NCBI GenBank assembly: GCA_944358895.1
Contig: CALVSB010000017.1
Span: forward strand, 1-33,308
DNA from: an uncultured Bacilli bacterium
GTDB taxonomy: Bacteria; Bacillota_I; Bacilli_A; RFN20; CAG-826
Length of the DNA stretch: 33,308 bases
Direction of reading: 5' to 3'
Shown here piece after piece: positions 109 through 9,505 of the stretch. The translations under genes and the position numbers were made by a program. Below the pieces are notes generated by a model. The model did no database searches and was not told the origin of the DNA. It saw only the letters and a program-made list of their open reading frames with translations. Each line of letters begins with the position of its first letter. Within the stretch, counting starts at the first letter, position 1.

Positions 109-675
109 CTACTTCCGCCCATAGGCTTCGTAGAGCTCGATGAGGAGGGCGTTATGGTAGTCGCGCGGGTCGATGCCCGTCGCCTCGACGAACTTGTTCA
201 GCCGGTAGTTGAAGGTATTCCGATGGACGTAGATGGCCTCCGCGGCCTTTATCGCGTCGAGGCCGCTTCTTAGATAAGCGATGGCCGTGAGGTAGATCTC
301 GCGGTCGAGGCCCGAGAACTCGCCTCGAAGGAGAGGCAACGACGAATAGTCCCGGTAATAAAACTCCCGGAGCAAGACGTCGGACGGGAAGAAGGCGCTA
401 TTGGGGAAATAGGAAAGCCCTTCGACGATGAGCTTCCTTGAAAGCGGGGTGTCGGCGTGGCTCCGAAGAAAGGAAAGGGTCGTTCCGAGGTCGTCGCGGA
501 TGGCCATGAGGGAGGAATGAAGCGGCATGAAAAGGTCTTTCGAGGCGTAGACGAGGCCGCTGATATTGCTTTCCCGCTCGAGGCGGAAAGGGACGCCGAG
601 GGAGGAGAGGGCGCCCTCGAGGGCGACGTGGTCGAGCGGCCCCTCGGACCTATAGAGATAGACGAAGTCCCGCAT
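109..675 (-). CDS. PucR/CdaR-type helix-turn-helix transcriptional regulator
   Basis: This 188-residue protein ends in a PucR C-terminal helix-turn-helix (HTH_30, about residues 126-183). The key stretch reads AAEAIYVHRNTFNYRLNKF, with the invariant HRNT..YRL pattern, then TGIDPRDY and a hydrophobic last helix. The first 120 residues have no domain I recognise; most family members are longer and carry a sensor domain here. Its ATG directly abuts the stop codon of the alpha-glucosidase upstream (676), so the two are almost certainly co-transcribed, and I infer that it regulates carbohydrate use, possibly its own operon. PucR-family proteins usually activate genes in response to small molecules; the ligand here is unknown. 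Confidence 0.8.
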   Translation of the reverse strand: MRDFVYLYRSEGPLDHVALEGALSSLGVPFRLERESNISGLVYASKDLFMPLHSSLMAIRDDLGTTLSFLRSHADTPLSRKLIVEGLSYFPNSAFFPSDVLLREFYYRDYSSLPLLRGEFSGLDREIYLTAIAYLRSGLDAIKAAEAIYVHRNTFNYRLNKFVEATGIDPRDYHNALLIELYEAYGRK

Positions 676-2541: not shown

Positions 2542-3036
2542 TTAGAAAAGGACGAGGAGGATGCAGCTATCGCCTTCGCCCCGTCCACCGTCATTGGGGG
2601 ACACGCTGACGGTCGTCGAGGCGTAGATGGTGCTTTCCTTGCTGACTTCCTTGATGAGAACGACCCCGCTTTCGCGGTCGTCGTCCTCGAAGGAGAAGAC
2701 CGGGAGGCCGTCGCTCGGGTCCACCGCCGCCTGGCCGAGGGTGAAGATGACGTCTTCGGAGCTCGGGGGCTCGCCCCCGGCGTTGAACTCGAGGGAAAAG
2801 GCATAGCGCATGTATTCCACCCCTTCCTCGTCGACGAAGGTCGGCTCGAAATGGAGGGTCAGGTACTTGTCCCCCTGGGGATTGCTCGGGAGGGGGCTTC
2901 CATCCATGTCGAGGAGGGTGATCGTCTCGATGTAGACCGGGACGATGATGTTCTGGGGGTTGGTCCCGAAGCTCGCGACGAGGACGATGCCAAGGAGGGC
3001 GATGAAAGCCACGACGAGGGCGATTGATTTCTTCAT
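2542..3036 (-). CDS. Membrane-anchored extracytoplasmic protein of unknown function
   Basis: This 164-residue protein has an N-terminal hydrophobic segment (about residues 5-25, IALVVAFIALLGIVLVASFG) after two lysines, without a lipobox Cys, so it is probably a membrane anchor with an outside domain of about 140 residues. The domain is acidic and beta-rich and I do not recognise it. The ATG at 3034-3036 overlaps the permease stop by four bases (ATGA), with AAGGAGG upstream, so translation is coupled to the ABC permease. It is the last gene of the four-gene transporter operon, which suggests an accessory subunit of that system. An in-frame upstream extension exists but lies inside the permease gene and has no coding character. 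Confidence 0.7.
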   Translation of the reverse strand: MKKSIALVVAFIALLGIVLVASFGTNPQNIIVPVYIETITLLDMDGSPLPSNPQGDKYLTLHFEPTFVDEEGVEYMRYAFSLEFNAGGEPPSSEDVIFTLGQAAVDPSDGLPVFSFEDDDRESGVVLIKEVSKESTIYASTTVSVSPNDGGRGEGDSCILLVLF

Positions 3037-4718
3037 CTCCTGACTTCCTCCTTTCCTTCGTAGCGGCCTTTCAAATAGAAGAGGAAGGCACTGACCGAGG
3101 CATAGATGAGGGCCAGGGCGAGGAGCTTGAGATAGGAAGGGAGAACCCCCTCGTTCCGGTAGAGGTAGAAAAGGGCCGTCGCGGCGGCGCTCACGATGAA
3201 GGCGAGGACGGTCGTCGCTTTTTCCCCAGGGAGCGAGGAGCCGTCCTGGAGGAATGTCGAGGACGGATGGACGAAGTCGAAGGCCAGGGCGCTCAGGCAC
3301 GTGCCGAGGTAAAAGAGGACGAGCGAAAGAGCCAGAAGCGCGGCCGAAGCGGGATCGAGGCCGTAGAAAAGGGCATATAGAGCCGTCGATAGGACAAGGG
3401 AAAGGGTGCCGAGGATCCCGGGGTAAACGGCCTTCGGGAGGATGAAGAAGAAGGAACGCCTAGGATAGGAACGGCTGAGGAGATAGCCCATCCCCTCCTC
3501 GGTGAAGCTCTTCGAAAGGGCCGAGGACGAGGCGAGGGAGACGAGGAGGAAGATGAGAAGCATGAGGACCTCGACGTAATACCGGCCCCGGGTCGAAAGA
3601 TCCATCCCGTGGAAGAACTTCCCGAGGGCCAGGGCCAAAAACGGGAGAACGAGGAAGGCCAAGGAGAGGGAAAGGAGCCCCCGCTCCTGCCCGCCCCGAA
3701 GGAGAAGCGCCTCCTTCTTGAGGGCGCTTAAGAAGGCAGGAAGTGGCCGGTTTTCCTCTCTCTTACGCCCCGCTTTCGCTTTTTTGAGGGCCAATGGGGC
3801 GCTCGATGAAAGGCGGAGGTAGAAGGGATTGAGGACATACACCGCGAAAAGGGCGGAAAAAACCGTCGCGCCTAGAAGCGTCAGGAAGACGTAGAGGCTC
3901 GAGAGGGGGAAGGCCACGTAGCTATAGCCGGTGAGCTCCCCGATGAGGAAGGTCGTGAGGAAATAGAAGGGCGGGAGATAACGCTTGTAGCCGTTGAGGA
4001 AGTTCTGGATGAGGCGGCTGTAATAGCTCCAGTTGGTGAAGATGTCGACCGTGTCGGGAACGAGGAGGACGAGGGCGACGAAGAGGGAACAAAGGAGAAT
4101 GAAGAAAAGAGCGACGAGCGGGACTTTGAGGCGCGGCCGTTCCTCAAGGAAGGAAGCCACGAGGTGGTAAGGAATGGCCAGTAGCGAGGCCAGCATCACC
4201 TCGAAGAGGGAGAGGAAGGCCAGGGCGAAGACGAGCCAGGGGTAAAGATAGCCCGGGGCCCCCATCACCATCATGTAACCGAGGAGGAGGGGGAACTGGA
4301 CGACGAAATTGCGGCCGAGCTCGTGGACGAAATAGACGGCAAGCCGGGCCAAAAAGACGGTCGAGCCGGTGCAGGGATAGGTCAAGAGGATCTTATTGTC
4401 GGGGCTGAGGAAGAGGGAACGCCTCAGTCCCGAGAGGAGGGAAAGAAAGCCGAAGAGCAGGAGGAAGGCCATCACGATCGAGGGGACGGCGGGCGGGACG
4501 TAGAAGACGCTCGAGAAGATGTTGAAGCTCCCGGCAAAGTAATAGGCCCCGTAGGAAAGGGCGATGAGAACGGCGAAAAGGACGAGGAGGCTCGTCAGCT
4601 TCACGAGGGTCCCCTTCAGGTCATTACGAAAGGAAAGGCGGCTCTTCTCGCGGAAGAGCATCCGGAAGACCACGAGGAACTTATGGAGGGAGAAAACCTC
4701 CTTTTTCCGCCATTCCAT
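3033..4718 (-). CDS. ABC-2-like transporter permease, about 12 membrane segments
   Basis: This 561-residue protein is almost all hydrophobic, with roughly 12 predicted membrane segments by eye in two blocks, separated by a charged loop near residues 330-370 (LKKAKAGRKREEN). It looks like the permease of an ABC-2-type exporter; the charged N-terminal stretch (SLHKFLVVFRMLFREKSR) is typical of such subunits. Start ATG 4716-4718 has AAGGAGAAG upstream and overlaps the stop of the ATPase-containing gene by one base (TGATG). The preceding gene supplies the ATPase, so the two should form one transporter. The substrate is unknown; the lipoprotein and anchored protein in the operon suggest an envelope-related cargo. 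Confidence 0.8.
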   Translation of the reverse strand: MEWRKKEVFSLHKFLVVFRMLFREKSRLSFRNDLKGTLVKLTSLLVLFAVLIALSYGAYYFAGSFNIFSSVFYVPPAVPSIVMAFLLLFGFLSLLSGLRRSLFLSPDNKILLTYPCTGSTVFLARLAVYFVHELGRNFVVQFPLLLGYMMVMGAPGYLYPWLVFALAFLSLFEVMLASLLAIPYHLVASFLEERPRLKVPLVALFFILLCSLFVALVLLVPDTVDIFTNWSYYSRLIQNFLNGYKRYLPPFYFLTTFLIGELTGYSYVAFPLSSLYVFLTLLGATVFSALFAVYVLNPFYLRLSSSAPLALKKAKAGRKREENRPLPAFLSALKKEALLLRGGQERGLLSLSLAFLVLPFLALALGKFFHGMDLSTRGRYYVEVLMLLIFLLVSLASSSALSKSFTEEGMGYLLSRSYPRRSFFFILPKAVYPGILGTLSLVLSTALYALFYGLDPASAALLALSLVLFYLGTCLSALAFDFVHPSSTFLQDGSSLPGEKATTVLAFIVSAAATALFYLYRNEGVLPSYLKLLALALIYASVSAFLFYLKGRYEGKEEVRR

Positions 4719-7114
4719 CAGGGTTTTGCTTCTCCTTTCGGGTCTTCCCCGAGCTTCAGGAAGAGCTGCTCGAGGTCGACGCCTTCTTCGTGGAGCCGGC
4801 TGACCTCCCCCCGGTAGACGAGGTCGCCATGCCGGATGACGATGATCTCGTCGCAAAGGCTATTGACGACGTCGATGAGGTGGGTCGAGAAGAAGACGAT
4901 GTTCCCCTTCCTGGCGTGCTCTCTCATCGTTTCCTTGATCTCGAAAATGGAGACGGGGTCGACCCCGGTCATCGGCTCGTCGAGGATCCAGACCTTGGGG
5001 TCATGGACGAGGCTCGAGACGATGGTGATCTTCTGCTTCATGCCGTGGGAATAGGTCCCGATCGGATGGTCGAAAGCCTGGACGAGGGATAGGCGCGGGA
5101 GGAGGGAGGAAAGGCGTTCCTCGCGGTCAGCCTTACTTACCCCATAGAGATCGGCGATGTAGTTGACGTACTCCCGCCCGGTCAAGGACTCGTAGAGGGC
5201 GTAGTGGTCGGGCACGAAGCCGATGAGCGACTTGGCCGCGATTTCCTCTTCCTGGAGGTCGTGCCCGGCGACGAGGATCCTTCCCCCGTCGAAGTCGTGC
5301 ATCCCGACGATCGACTTGATGATCGTCGATTTCCCGGCCCCGTTCTTCCCGAGGAAGGCGTAGATCTTCCCGCCTTCGAGTTCGAGGGAGAAGTCCCTTA
5401 CCGTGTCGAAGTCGTTATGGGGGTAGCGTTTCCTTAGGTGCTCGATTTTGAGGGTGGCTCTTTCTTCCATGGGATGCTCCTTTCCTAATAGGCGTTTCCA
5501 CTCCTCCTTCCGCCGCTTCGCAAGGTGCGATCGCTCAAGTAGGAGTTCCAGGCCGTCGACCCCGGCAAAGAGGAGTTCGTAGACGTACCACATCGCGAAG
5601 GCGAAGCCGACGTAGACGAAGTAGAAGCAAACGAGGTAGAGGGGATGAACGAGGAATTCCTTCCCTCCGAGAGAGAAGGCGAAGGACAGCTCGTAGATCT
5701 TCTTGGCCCAGTCGCCGATCTGGGAGGGGACGTAGTCGCTATAAAGGAAGAAGAAGTCGATGTCGTAGCCGTAGGCGTTCCCGACCGTGTTCACGACGAG
5801 GCAAAGGAGGAAATAGGCAAGGAAGCCGGCCATCGAGTAGAAGAAGTACTTCATCTTGGGCCGCGGGTAGATGCCTAAAAGCACGATGAGGACCGGCATG
5901 AAGAAGGCGTAGAGATGGTTGATGTAGAACTCGACGACCGCGAGGCTAAAGGCCCCGTAGGTCGGGAAGGCGGCACTATCGACGTAATTGGGCATGAGGA
6001 GGGCGATGAAGGCCCCGATCACGTTCACGAACATCGTGAAATAGAAGACCTTCGTCGTCTTGAAGGTCAATACGAGAGGGATGACGTACATCGCCGTGCA
6101 GCATAGATGGAGGGGGATCGTCTCGAGACTCGTCCAGATGTTCCACCTTAGTCCCCCGATGTAGCCATAGAAGGCCATGTAGGAGACATAGGCTAGTAAG
6201 GCATGACGATGGGCCGCATCGAAGGGCCGGAGGAGGAAAAAGTAGGCCGTCGGGAGGAGGAAGGCGAGATAGACGAGGACCCGGTGGGTGACGTTGAGGT
6301 CTTCCGGGACCGAGAGGAAGGAGACGTGGCTCCCGAAAAGGACGGCGAAGCTGTAGCTACTAGGCAAAGAAAGGAGGACCACCGCTGCCAAAAGTAGATA
6401 TGGCGTGACGAGTTTCGGTCCATTATCTTTGCCGCCTTCCTCGAAGAAGGAAGAGGCGGAAAGGACGAAGAGGATCCCGAGCTCGATCCCAAGAAGCGGC
6501 AGGCGGAAAGAATATGGATCGAAGTTCACTTCCCCGCTTCCGAGGACGTCGCCGGCGATCCCTTGGATGAGGAAAGGGGAAAGGGCGAAGGAGAGGAAGG
6601 ATAGCGAGGTGAGACCCCATTTCCTTACGTTATGGAAGAAGGGCGAAGGCACGAAGGAAGAGACGGCCGCGAGCATGGCCGCGGCCTGGAAAAGGAGGAT
6701 CCCGACCATCCCGAAGAAGACGGAAAAAGGGGCCATGAAGGACGAGGAAGAGAGACCGTCGAGGGTCGCGAAATAGTCCTTACCGCCTTCGTAATGGGCA
6801 AGATAAAGGAGGAAAAGGAGAACGGCGAGAACCTTCTTAAGGAACGGCCAAAGGTTCTCTTTCGTCAACGTTTTCTTCCAAAAGAGGGCGCTTTTGCTGC
6901 TATTATTGGCCAAAAAGCTCTTGGAACCCCGGTAAAAGAAGCGGACGTAGGCAAAGCCGGTGCCCAATAAGAGAAGGATAACCGCGAAAGAAAGGAAGAA
7001 TCCGATGGCGCGGGGATAGACGCCGGCGAGGACGAGGGAGGAAACGAAAACGAGGAAAAGCCCTCCGAGGAGGGCGAGGTCAATCGGTTTTAGCTTGCTG
7101 AAGAATCCTTTCAT
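4718..7114 (-). CDS. YwaF/TMEM164-like membrane protein fused to ABC transporter ATPase
   Basis: One uninterrupted frame of 798 codons holds two proteins. Residues 1 to about 520 form a polytopic membrane region. Its second half (about 300-520) resembles the YwaF/TMEM164 family, with IPLHLC and FYINHLYAFFMPVL. Residues 549-798 are a complete ABC-2-type ATPase: Walker A GKNGAGKST (589-597), Q-loop region GFVPDHYALYESLT, signature YSHGMKQK (688-695), Walker B WILDEP (709-714) and switch His745. An ATG at residue 549 has GGAAAGGAG upstream, so the ATPase may also be made alone. The ATG at 7112-7114 overlaps the lipoprotein stop by four bases. Its partner permease is the next gene. The fusion could be real, or a recent loss of a stop codon between two genes. 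Confidence 0.82.
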   Translation of the reverse strand: MKGFFSKLKPIDLALLGGLFLVFVSSLVLAGVYPRAIGFFLSFAVILLLLGTGFAYVRFFYRGSKSFLANNSSKSALFWKKTLTKENLWPFLKKVLAVLLFLLYLAHYEGGKDYFATLDGLSSSSFMAPFSVFFGMVGILLFQAAAMLAAVSSFVPSPFFHNVRKWGLTSLSFLSFALSPFLIQGIAGDVLGSGEVNFDPYSFRLPLLGIELGILFVLSASSFFEEGGKDNGPKLVTPYLLLAAVVLLSLPSSYSFAVLFGSHVSFLSVPEDLNVTHRVLVYLAFLLPTAYFFLLRPFDAAHRHALLAYVSYMAFYGYIGGLRWNIWTSLETIPLHLCCTAMYVIPLVLTFKTTKVFYFTMFVNVIGAFIALLMPNYVDSAAFPTYGAFSLAVVEFYINHLYAFFMPVLIVLLGIYPRPKMKYFFYSMAGFLAYFLLCLVVNTVGNAYGYDIDFFFLYSDYVPSQIGDWAKKIYELSFAFSLGGKEFLVHPLYLVCFYFVYVGFAFAMWYVYELLFAGVDGLELLLERSHLAKRRKEEWKRLLGKEHPMEERATLKIEHLRKRYPHNDFDTVRDFSLELEGGKIYAFLGKNGAGKSTIIKSIVGMHDFDGGRILVAGHDLQEEEIAAKSLIGFVPDHYALYESLTGREYVNYIADLYGVSKADREERLSSLLPRLSLVQAFDHPIGTYSHGMKQKITIVSSLVHDPKVWILDEPMTGVDPVSIFEIKETMREHARKGNIVFFSTHLIDVVNSLCDEIIVIRHGDLVYRGEVSRLHEEGVDLEQLFLKLGEDPKGEAKP
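5468..5485 (-). promoter_or_regulatory. Internal ribosome site and ATG inside the fused ORF
   Basis: On the minus strand GGAAAGGAGC is followed six bases later by an in-frame ATG (5468-5470), which opens exactly at the beginning of the ABC ATPase domain (MEERATLKIEH). Spacing and sequence are as good as those of the stand-alone genes nearby. This supports separate translation of a 250-residue ATPase, the usual length for such subunits. Confidence 0.6.
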
Positions 7115-9390
7115 TGAACCGCGTAGTCATTGAGGCCGAAGACGACCGAGTAGGCAGCGCTTCCTTCATACTTCTTCGCGTCGGAGAGCGAGGACTCGAT
7201 GCCGCCCGGGAGCTGGGCCTTGGCCCCGTAAAGGTAGGAGAGGCCGAGATACTCGTGGTTGAGCTTGCTGGCTTCGGCCCCGGCGATCTTCGTGAGGTCG
7301 CCGCCGGGGTTGAAGATCGTTGTGATGAGGCTCGTGAGGTCGACGGCCCGGTAACTCGCGAAGTCGTCCGGCGTCAGGGTGAAGGGAGCGAAGAAATAGG
7401 GCTTTCCCTCCTGGTCGTAGGTCATCATGCTGGCCGTGAGGTAGCTCGTGAGGAAGCCGGCCCCGTAATGGGTGCCGCTTAAGACTGGGAGGAGGGAGAC
7501 GAGGCTCAAGGGATTGTTCGGATCGAAGGAAGCAAGAGCTTTCTTGAATTCTTCTTCCCCGTTCCGGTAGTCGGTATAGGCGCATTTGCCGATCGAGACG
7601 GTCGCGTCCATCCCGGGCTGAAGTTCCCCGGCCGCTTCCATGTCGCAGTTCATCGTGAGGCCCACCGCATTGATCCGCTCAGCCCCGTCGACGCTCTGGA
7701 AGAGGGTCTTCCCGAGGTCGTGGAGGGTGTCGCTCGCCATCGGCTTGAGGACGCTTTGGAAGAGGGGGCCGAGGCCGTAGAGGTCGAACCAGCCGCCCTG
7801 CCCCGTCACGTAGTTCGAAAGCTGGGTGGCGTTATCCACGATGACGTCGCTTCCGGTGAGGTATTGAGAGGCGCCTTTCTCTTCGAGGTTGGCCCATTTG
7901 TCGCTCACCGCCGGGTCGGCCGCCGTCGGGATGGCCTGGTTGATGAAGAGGAAGCCGCCAGCCTTCTCGAGGATCGAGTGCTCCGCCTCGATGAGGGAAT
8001 CGCTGTAGTTGAAGAGCATCGAGGAGAAGCAATCGCTCATCCTGGTGTCTTTGATATGGACTTCCGGCCGGTGGCCGCCCCGCTCGATCACCTCGTTCAC
8101 CGACGACGGGCCGCTGTTGACGAGGACGGTGAAGAAATGCTGGATCCGGCAGTTCTCGAAACTCATCTTGCCGGATTGCTTGGCGAAGAGGATCCCGCCG
8201 GCCAAGGTATCGTCGCTCGGGTCGTCGGGGGTCAGTTTCCAGTCCTCGACTTGGTCACTGCTCACGCCTTGGTTGCCGTAGGCGGCAAGGTCGACGAAGG
8301 CGATTTCATGGTTCTGCTTGGGGCTGAGGCCGGTGTCGCTACCGAAAAGGCAAGCATGGGTCGAGATGGCCCCGGTCGAAGCATCGGGAAGGGTCGGGGT
8401 CCCGCTGCTGCGGGCTTCGCTCACGACGTAAGGGAAGGTCTTCCCGAGGGAAATCTGGTTGTAATTGCCATAGATGGCCGCTTGGTAATCTGCCTCTTCG
8501 CCCGGCTCGTGCTTGTAAACGTAGCTCCAGTCCTTGAGGGTCCCGTAAACGGCCGGGTCGTCGGCCTTTTCGTCGGCCTCGCTCCAAAGGAGGGAAGAAG
8601 GGATGTCATCTTTCTCGATCACGATGTCGCCATAGATGACGAGCTTGTCATAGGAGGTGGCCGCCGTCGCTTCGGAGCCGAGGACCTCTTCCTTCATCGC
8701 GAGGTAGCTTTCATCTTCGTGGGCATTGTCGAAAAGGACGAGTTCCTTGGCCCGGGTGACGTTATAGGCCCCGTCCTCGATGTGAACCCGGTGCTCGAGG
8801 CTCGAAATGAGGGTTCCTTCGAGCTCGAAGGTCAAAACGACGTCCCGGGGAAGGGAGGAAGCGAGGTCTTTTCGGAAGAAGACCAAGCCCTCACTCTTGA
8901 GCCGAGAGAGGGCGACTTCGTCGAAGTAGTCGGTAAGATTCAAGGCGTTTCCTTCCGTGTCGAAGATCCTCACGTCCGCCCCGTCGGGCATGCCGCTATA
9001 GGTGGAAGGCGCCATCGTGATAAGGTCGAGGACGGTCACCGTCGGGGCGAGGGAAACCTCGTTCATGTTCCCGATCCGGAAGAGGCCGTGACGCGACATG
9101 AAGTCGGAAGAGCCGAGGTCGCTGCTGACTTTATAACTCCGCGAAAGATAGTTGAGGTAGGCGCGGTTCCTCTCCCACGAGGTGACGACCTCGGTCGCTT
9201 CGCTCGAGGAAGAGGAGCTAGGTTCCTCTTCCGCGGAGGAAGAACTCGAGGAAGCGTTCTCGCTCGAGGAGGCCTCGCCCGTCGATTCATCGACGCTGCT
9301 ATTCGAAGCCGAGGAGTTATTTCCCCCGCCGCAGGAAGCGAGGATGAGGGCTAGGGCTAAGCCTAGAAAAGGGGCAGTCTTCCGCATCAT
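7111..9390 (-). CDS. Large surface lipoprotein, possible beta-helix, transporter-linked
   Basis: This 759-residue protein starts with a lipoprotein signal: positive MMRK, a hydrophobic core and the lipobox LASC with C20. A 45-residue Ser/Glu/Asn-rich spacer (about 21-68) follows, typical of cell-surface lipoproteins that need distance from the membrane. The rest has no family I can name. Segments such as KLVIYGDIVIEKDDIP and SFENCRIQHFFTVLVNSGP look like turns of a right-handed parallel beta-helix. It is the first gene of the operon, and its stop overlaps the start of the ABC fusion (ATGA). The role is inferred: a substrate receptor, or a surface component exported or assembled by the transporter. 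Two ATGs are possible; AAGGA lies ten bases before the first. Confidence 0.75.
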   Translation of the reverse strand: MMRKTAPFLGLALALILASCGGGNNSSASNSSVDESTGEASSSENASSSSSSAEEEPSSSSSSEATEVVTSWERNRAYLNYLSRSYKVSSDLGSSDFMSRHGLFRIGNMNEVSLAPTVTVLDLITMAPSTYSGMPDGADVRIFDTEGNALNLTDYFDEVALSRLKSEGLVFFRKDLASSLPRDVVLTFELEGTLISSLEHRVHIEDGAYNVTRAKELVLFDNAHEDESYLAMKEEVLGSEATAATSYDKLVIYGDIVIEKDDIPSSLLWSEADEKADDPAVYGTLKDWSYVYKHEPGEEADYQAAIYGNYNQISLGKTFPYVVSEARSSGTPTLPDASTGAISTHACLFGSDTGLSPKQNHEIAFVDLAAYGNQGVSSDQVEDWKLTPDDPSDDTLAGGILFAKQSGKMSFENCRIQHFFTVLVNSGPSSVNEVIERGGHRPEVHIKDTRMSDCFSSMLFNYSDSLIEAEHSILEKAGGFLFINQAIPTAADPAVSDKWANLEEKGASQYLTGSDVIVDNATQLSNYVTGQGGWFDLYGLGPLFQSVLKPMASDTLHDLGKTLFQSVDGAERINAVGLTMNCDMEAAGELQPGMDATVSIGKCAYTDYRNGEEEFKKALASFDPNNPLSLVSLLPVLSGTHYGAGFLTSYLTASMMTYDQEGKPYFFAPFTLTPDDFASYRAVDLTSLITTIFNPGGDLTKIAGAEASKLNHEYLGLSYLYGAKAQLPGGIESSLSDAKKYEGSAAYSVVFGLNDYAVQ

Positions 9391-9421: not shown

Positions 9422-9450
9422 AATTTACCTCAAGGTAAATCCCTTTTCAA
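9422..9450 (-). promoter_or_regulatory. Promoter of the lipoprotein-ABC operon
   Basis: On the minus strand, TTGAAA (9445-9450) is followed after exactly 17 bases by TAAATT (9422-9427). These match the sigma-A -35 at 5 of 6 and the -10 at 4 of 6 positions. The position, about 30 bases before the lipoprotein ATG, fits. The whole spacer is occupied by the palindrome listed separately. Confidence 0.6.
9423..9440. promoter_or_regulatory. Candidate operator: perfect 18-bp palindrome over the -10
   Basis: Plus-strand ATTTACCTCAAGGTAAAT has 8-base arms (ATTTACCT and AGGTAAAT) around a 2-base centre. It covers the -10 and most of the spacer of the operon promoter. With so small a loop it is more likely a dimer-protein site than a hairpin. 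No regulator gene lies beside it, so the regulator is unknown. Confidence 0.5.
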
Positions 9451-9475: not shown

Positions 9476-9505
9476 AAAAAAGGGCGGATTTCGCTAAATC
9501 CGCCC
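9476..9505 (-). terminator. Rho-independent terminator of the glycogen operon
   Basis: On the minus strand GGGCGGATTT, a 4-base loop (AGCG) and AAATCCGCCC make a perfect 10-bp stem followed directly by six Ts. It lies 15 bases after the small membrane protein gene that ends at 9520, the last gene of the glgB operon. Confidence 0.92.

Follow-up and report, generated by a model that had tools for sequence, protein, structure and literature searches.

Several described systems resemble parts of the locus analyzed here. NosDFY(L) is the ABC-2 machine of nitrous-oxide-reductase assembly, and its component NosD has a right-handed β-helix fold. LanFEG with LanI combines an ABC-2 pump with a surface lipoprotein. 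Human TMEM164 is a phospholipid transacylase that moves arachidonate between phospholipids (PMC11592020). In the open-licence papers that we searched, the bacterial member of this family, YwaF, was mentioned only in passing, and nothing was found on the family profile PF14808 or on the gene combination described below, in agreement with an earlier note on this DNA that had called the set uncharacterized as a combination.

The window, that is, the whole 33,308-nucleotide stretch of DNA that was analyzed, is contig C17 of an uncultured Bacilli genome (G000; 1.46 Mb, 94.5% complete). At 2542–9390 on the minus strand it carries four genes, here called LIPO, fusion, PERM and ANCH, which overlap by 4, 1 and 4 bases (Table 1). 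The coordinates and lengths first given for these genes, together with their overlaps of 1–4 bases, were confirmed; the length of the permease is counted from its ATG, a 607-aa ORF being merely a longer TTG reading. Two descriptions in the earlier note had to be toned down: "giant" is too strong for a lipoprotein of 759 aa, although its homologues do reach 2071 aa, and the fixed stoichiometry deduced from tight coupling does not follow, since overlaps or translational coupling do not establish stoichiometry. The hairpin and the promoter-like site 5′ of LIPO are consistent with a separate transcription unit, promoter-like matches being about equally frequent by chance in this region.

Table 1. 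Features of the four-gene locus and of its 5′ flank in the window
Feature	Positions	Strand	Details and basis
LIPO, 759-aa β-helix lipoprotein	7111..9390	(−)	lipobox LASC, Cys20; signal and Ser-rich linker
LIPO domains: Ig-like, residues ~65–210; right-handed β-helix, residues ~290–610			predicted; mean pLDDT 75.8, β-helix Z up to 15.6
Fusion, 798 aa: TMEM164/YwaF membrane domain and ABC ATPase (residues ~553–790)	4718..7114	(−)	PF14808, E = 7e-14; PF00005 (ABC_tran), E = 4e-26
PERM, 561 aa: pseudo-dimeric 12-helix ABC-2 permease	3033..4718	(−)	AlphaFold model, mean pLDDT 87.8; fold matches
ANCH, 164 aa: single N-terminal TM helix and Ig-like extracytoplasmic domain	2542..3036	(−)	alignment, hydropathy, homology to LIPO stalk, fusion in L168
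Promoter-like site 5′ of LIPO, TTGAAA-17-TAAATT	9422..9450	(−)	one match, with 1.4 expected by chance
Terminator-like hairpin of the upstream operon, stem of 10 pairs followed by TTTTTT	9482..9505	(−)	strong; separates the upstream operon from the module

The fusion protein had been described as a YwaF/TMEM164-like membrane protein joined to an ABC ATPase, and its Pfam matches agree: in addition to the ABC_tran match, PF14808 (TMEM164) scored 52.3 and 62.7 bits against a cut-off of 25. About 262 additional N-terminal membrane residues precede the YwaF domain; a second YwaF copy was considered for this region and rejected, as it showed no profile similarity. In 77 fusion sequences, His277, Arg278, Pro334, His336, Cys338, Asn364 and His400 were invariant, and the Cys338–His400 spacing was 55–62, mostly 57. 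The cysteine and the last histidine were also kept in two more distant stand-alone proteins of the TMEM164 family. Judging in part by this spacing, Cys338 and His400 may be the counterparts of the catalytic residues of human TMEM164. A divergent stand-alone YwaF-like ORF of 269 aa, carrying the motif FQLCSTPLYILP, was observed on the minus strand in L096, 5′ of the fusion operon and opposite to it. In the ATPase part, Walker A, signature, Walker B and H-loop are all present, and the motifs GxNGAGKST, SHGMKQK and WILDEP as well as H745 were invariant in 77/77 fusions. The Q-loop (VPDHYALYE, region of residues 636–637) has Asp636 in place of the usual Gln in all 77, and this Asp also occurs in related unfused ATPases (L176, L179). 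Among the best-matching ABC profiles were ATPases of drug resistance and bacteriocin resistance (drrA, lantibiotic protection).

The AlphaFold model of the permease consists of two six-helix halves and has an ABC-2 transmembrane fold. NosY was the top fold match of its second half (Z 17.0, rmsd 3.6, 211 residues), ABCA and ABCG structures matched at Z 13–16, and a mycobacterial efflux pump chain of the Rv1217c type aligned with 418 residues of the predicted model (Z 13.9, rmsd 6.2). At the sequence level, the window permease stayed below Pfam cut-offs, with ABC2_membrane (E = 1e-3) as the sole match and the PF16949 (ABC_tran_2) cut-off not reached; distant homologues exceeded the latter (L181, 9e-11; L182, 4e-7), and one member of the permease family matched PF16949 at 2.6e-7. 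The internal duplication is read from the model; at the sequence level, the two halves gave no more than a weak match in register (E = 0.02). Neither the YwaF domain nor the permease had a match in a sequence search of the PDB. The earlier note had considered that all four proteins might belong to a named transporter family. No single family covers them, the core being of the known ABC-2 class and the fused domain a member of TMEM164.

To establish how widely the set occurs, we compared related genomes. Among 146 genomes sampled from the same family, 36 had the fusion over all or nearly all of its length. Twenty of these 36 regions were read, and in all 20 the permease and the small anchored gene adjoined the fusion; three had no BLAST-recognized LIPO. 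In two of these, L079 and L082, the large gene aligned with the LIPO family; the third, L069, yielded no convincing LIPO by BLAST and alignment of the read regions. Scanning the YwaF-domain alignment against 84,980 species genomes yielded 80 loci, from Bacilli and Clostridia MAGs. Profile searches detected the complete four-gene set in 71 of them, which is every locus whose contig extends far enough (71/71); for the remaining nine, the contig breaks off within the module or right after ANCH. With all informative loci complete, the four genes, whose recurrence across related genomes the earlier note had left as a matter to check, do recur and stay together, which rules out scattered homologues or chance adjacency. 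The gene order was fusion–permease–ANCH–LIPO in 68 loci and LIPO-first in three (L085–L087), which the fusion tree groups with the window in a single clade. Since both gene orders retain all four genes, the set stays together through rearrangement. A permease of the cognate type (E < 1e-60) occurred in about 19 of 392 genomes of a phylum-level sample, with the fusion adjoining it in those inspected. Inter-protein distances correlated at 0.80–0.92, values compatible with co-inheritance and confounded by species relatedness. Candidatus Alloenteromonas pullistercoris, the closest named relative as judged by the fusion, shares 65% identity across the YwaF domain and 59% over the whole fusion.

In some Clostridia, a small membrane protein of 130–180 aa, a possible fifth component, is encoded directly 5′ of the fusion (L088, L091, L092, L094, L100, L106, L110, L114, L117, L129 and L142); several of these proteins end in a KFLC- or KLIC-like motif with a C-terminal Cys. 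A plasmid search matched the ATPase part alone, and a defence system was rejected, PADLOC giving merely generic ATPase matches.

Flank clustering revealed no conserved families across loci and no conserved biosynthetic neighbors. These results bear on the idea of a LanFEG/LanI-like self-protection or drug-efflux system, in which antibiotics or membrane-active peptides would be bound by the surface proteins and expelled by the pump. The drrA and lantibiotic-protection ATPases among the best ABC profiles, the patchy distribution (36/146 family genomes) and the presence of two copies in some genomes are in line with such a role, but the flanks hold no conserved peptide-biosynthesis or regulatory genes, and a β-helix stalk protein of 759 to 2071 aa together with a fused TMEM164 domain is unlike known immunity systems. 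We regard self-protection as distinctly unlikely. Two fusion copies each were observed in G027, G071, G130, G256 and G496, and in G256 (L175) two modules lie near each other on a single contig.

Large anchored Ig proteins and lipoproteins also lie next to related ABC/permease pairs that have no fused YwaF domain (L176–L180), and the L179 cluster includes a stand-alone TMEM164 protein. Another such cluster, again without the YwaF domain, lies in the window's own genome (L183; contig C6, 5690–11724) and encodes an ABC ATPase, a permease, a 797-aa TM-anchored protein with a β-helix-like sequence, and a 377-aa lipoprotein. In L184, the protein that corresponds to the anchored one matched Pfam Beta_helix at E = 3e-5, just under the cut-off. 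A β-helix partner thus recurs with this permease family. The 377-aa lipoprotein carries a collagen-like KGEKGDPGEDG sequence.

We then considered the two surface proteins. The lipobox cysteine of LIPO was invariant in 52/52 sequences, and the host genome encodes Lgt and LspA. In the model, the Ig-like domain comes first and is followed by the β-helix; homologues place about 1 to 12 Ig stalk repeats between the lipid anchor and the β-helix, so that the stalk varies in length. The conserved polar residues of LIPO are mainly Asn, plus Trp534, while Asp287 and His345 reach 83% at most. Polysaccharide lyases, epimerases and hydrolases share the fold, yet no acidic residue of LIPO is conserved above 83%; because there is no strictly conserved catalytic acid, a carbohydrate-enzyme role is unsupported, and the modeled β-helix would fit a ligand-binding scaffold. 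The NosD family did not come up in Pfam scans, whether of LIPO from the window (E up to 1) or of LIPO proteins from 19 relatives (E up to 0.1), nor was NosD among the LIPO fold matches listed.

ANCH-like repeats build the stalk of a longer LIPO, that of L158, whereas a profile comparison of the ANCH Ig domain with the last LIPO Ig domain gave no match. In G436 (L168), a single open frame, truncated by the end of the contig, holds ANCH from its TM helix on and then the LIPO Ig region, with ANCH model positions 1–140 at residues 1–120 and the LIPO Ig region at 175–324. This fusion is the best evidence that both surface proteins act jointly.

The same fusion, which ties the surface part to the membrane, is also in line with a mechanotransmission or assembly device, where ATP hydrolysis moves the permease and ANCH thereby pulls or reshapes LIPO for ligand loading or a surface reaction, the YwaF domain serving as a structural element or lipid sensor. 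The rank of NosY as the top structural match of the permease and the suitability of LIPO, with no strictly conserved catalytic acids, as a binding scaffold speak for it. However, the invariant Cys and His of the fused domain suggest chemistry over structure, the permease also matches the Rv1217c-type drug-efflux pump over a longer stretch, and no metalloenzyme partner is linked. We therefore hold mechanotransmission to be rather unlikely, if worth keeping in mind. A third possibility is that the YwaF domain acylates LIPO itself and that the ABC core releases or presents the matured lipoprotein. An acyltransferase-like domain and a lipoprotein are indeed always encoded together, and the Lgt and LspA of the host cover the first steps. 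But these genomes encode other lipoprotein-like sequences, some matching LIPO in the signal and linker alone, while most relatives are without the module, and stand-alone YwaF proteins exist without LIPO. Such a maturation device seems to us quite improbable.

Our preferred reading, to which we give a probability of roughly 0.45, is that of a NosDFY-like ABC-2 machine with a lipid-acyltransferase-like domain, which would export or remodel a lipid-linked product and hand it to a surface β-helix. There is good support for a core in which an ABC ATPase, covalently joined to a TMEM164/YwaF domain, drives a pseudo-dimeric ABC-2 permease. By likeness to pseudo-dimeric ABC-2 pumps, one permease probably associates with two fusion subunits. 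ANCH, with its TM helix and Ig domain, would sit at the core as an adaptor that docks LIPO, a docking suggested by their conserved linkage, their shared Ig homology and the natural ANCH–LIPO fusion; LIPO would form a lipid-anchored β-helix head on an Ig stalk outside the membrane. Within the membrane, the TMEM164-type Cys/His site would act on a lipid or a lipid-linked molecule by moving an acyl chain, and the ABC-2 core would move the product outward and pass it to the β-helix of LIPO, in a NosDFY-like arrangement. We favor a substrate of this kind because the fused domain comes from a transacylase family and keeps its Cys/His pair; this choice, like the acyl chemistry and the direction, is an inference. 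The more specific proposal, that a TMEM164-type transacylase and an ABC-2 exporter, covalently coupled, form an ATP-driven acyl-remodeling and export machine that loads a surface β-helix lipoprotein, is speculative, and we would not count it as likely. As to the envelope-export or surface-assembly machine suggested in the earlier note, the parts fit a dedicated machine, one that may export, remodel or transmit force.

The host offers a further constraint. In its genome, which is 94.5% complete, neither a PF00905 transpeptidase domain nor a Mur ligase was detected, and no transpeptidase was found in 24 sampled genus relatives; other families of the host's order do have transpeptidases. These results suggest that the host lineage is probably wall-less. 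Among 20 other module-carrying genomes sampled, seven have transpeptidases and 13 have none. Since the module thus occurs in hosts with and without penicillin-binding-protein transpeptidases, its function seems independent of a peptidoglycan wall. A self-contained set so strictly conserved across many uncultured Bacilli and Clostridia of the gut is probably not incidental. In addition, because the lipid-transacylase-like domain is part of the same chain as an ABC ATPase, the functionally uncharacterized YwaF proteins of bacteria are linked with a specific transport machine, and their function thereby becomes testable. If the acyl-remodeling and export reading were true, it would provide the first function for the bacterial YwaF family and a new class of envelope machine common to walled and wall-less gut bacteria.

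In the open-licence papers searched, the fusion, the conserved quartet and the surface parts are not described; the class of the ABC-2 core is already known. Like LanFEG with LanI, the window set has an ABC-2 pump and a surface lipoprotein, but it differs in its surface folds and its fused TMEM164 domain, and flank clustering, which was not aimed at very short peptide genes, linked no conserved lanthipeptide or bacteriocin family to the loci. The Rv1217c–Rv1218c efflux pump (8k1m–8k1p) has a pseudo-dimeric permease of similar length and a matching fold over 418–431 residues (Z 13.3–13.9), but it consists of two components only, and we know of no YwaF domain or surface proteins in it. The window permease falls below the PF16949 cut-off that its distant homologues exceed. 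With the TMEM164/YwaF family (PF14808), compared by sequence, the fusion shares a profile match above cut-off and a Cys/His pair kept in two stand-alone members, and differs in its added N-terminal membrane residues and ABC ATPase. From NosDFY(L), the window set is set apart by a LIPO that has no sequence relation to NosD and is lipid-anchored on an Ig stalk, and by the addition of ANCH, a TMEM164-fused ATPase and a single-chain 12-helix permease; flank clustering linked no metalloenzyme partner among conserved flanks. Because LIPO has no NosD sequence match, we do not claim membership in NosDFY. The likeness is one of architecture: in both, an ABC-2 ATPase and permease are encoded together with an extracytoplasmic right-handed β-helix protein.
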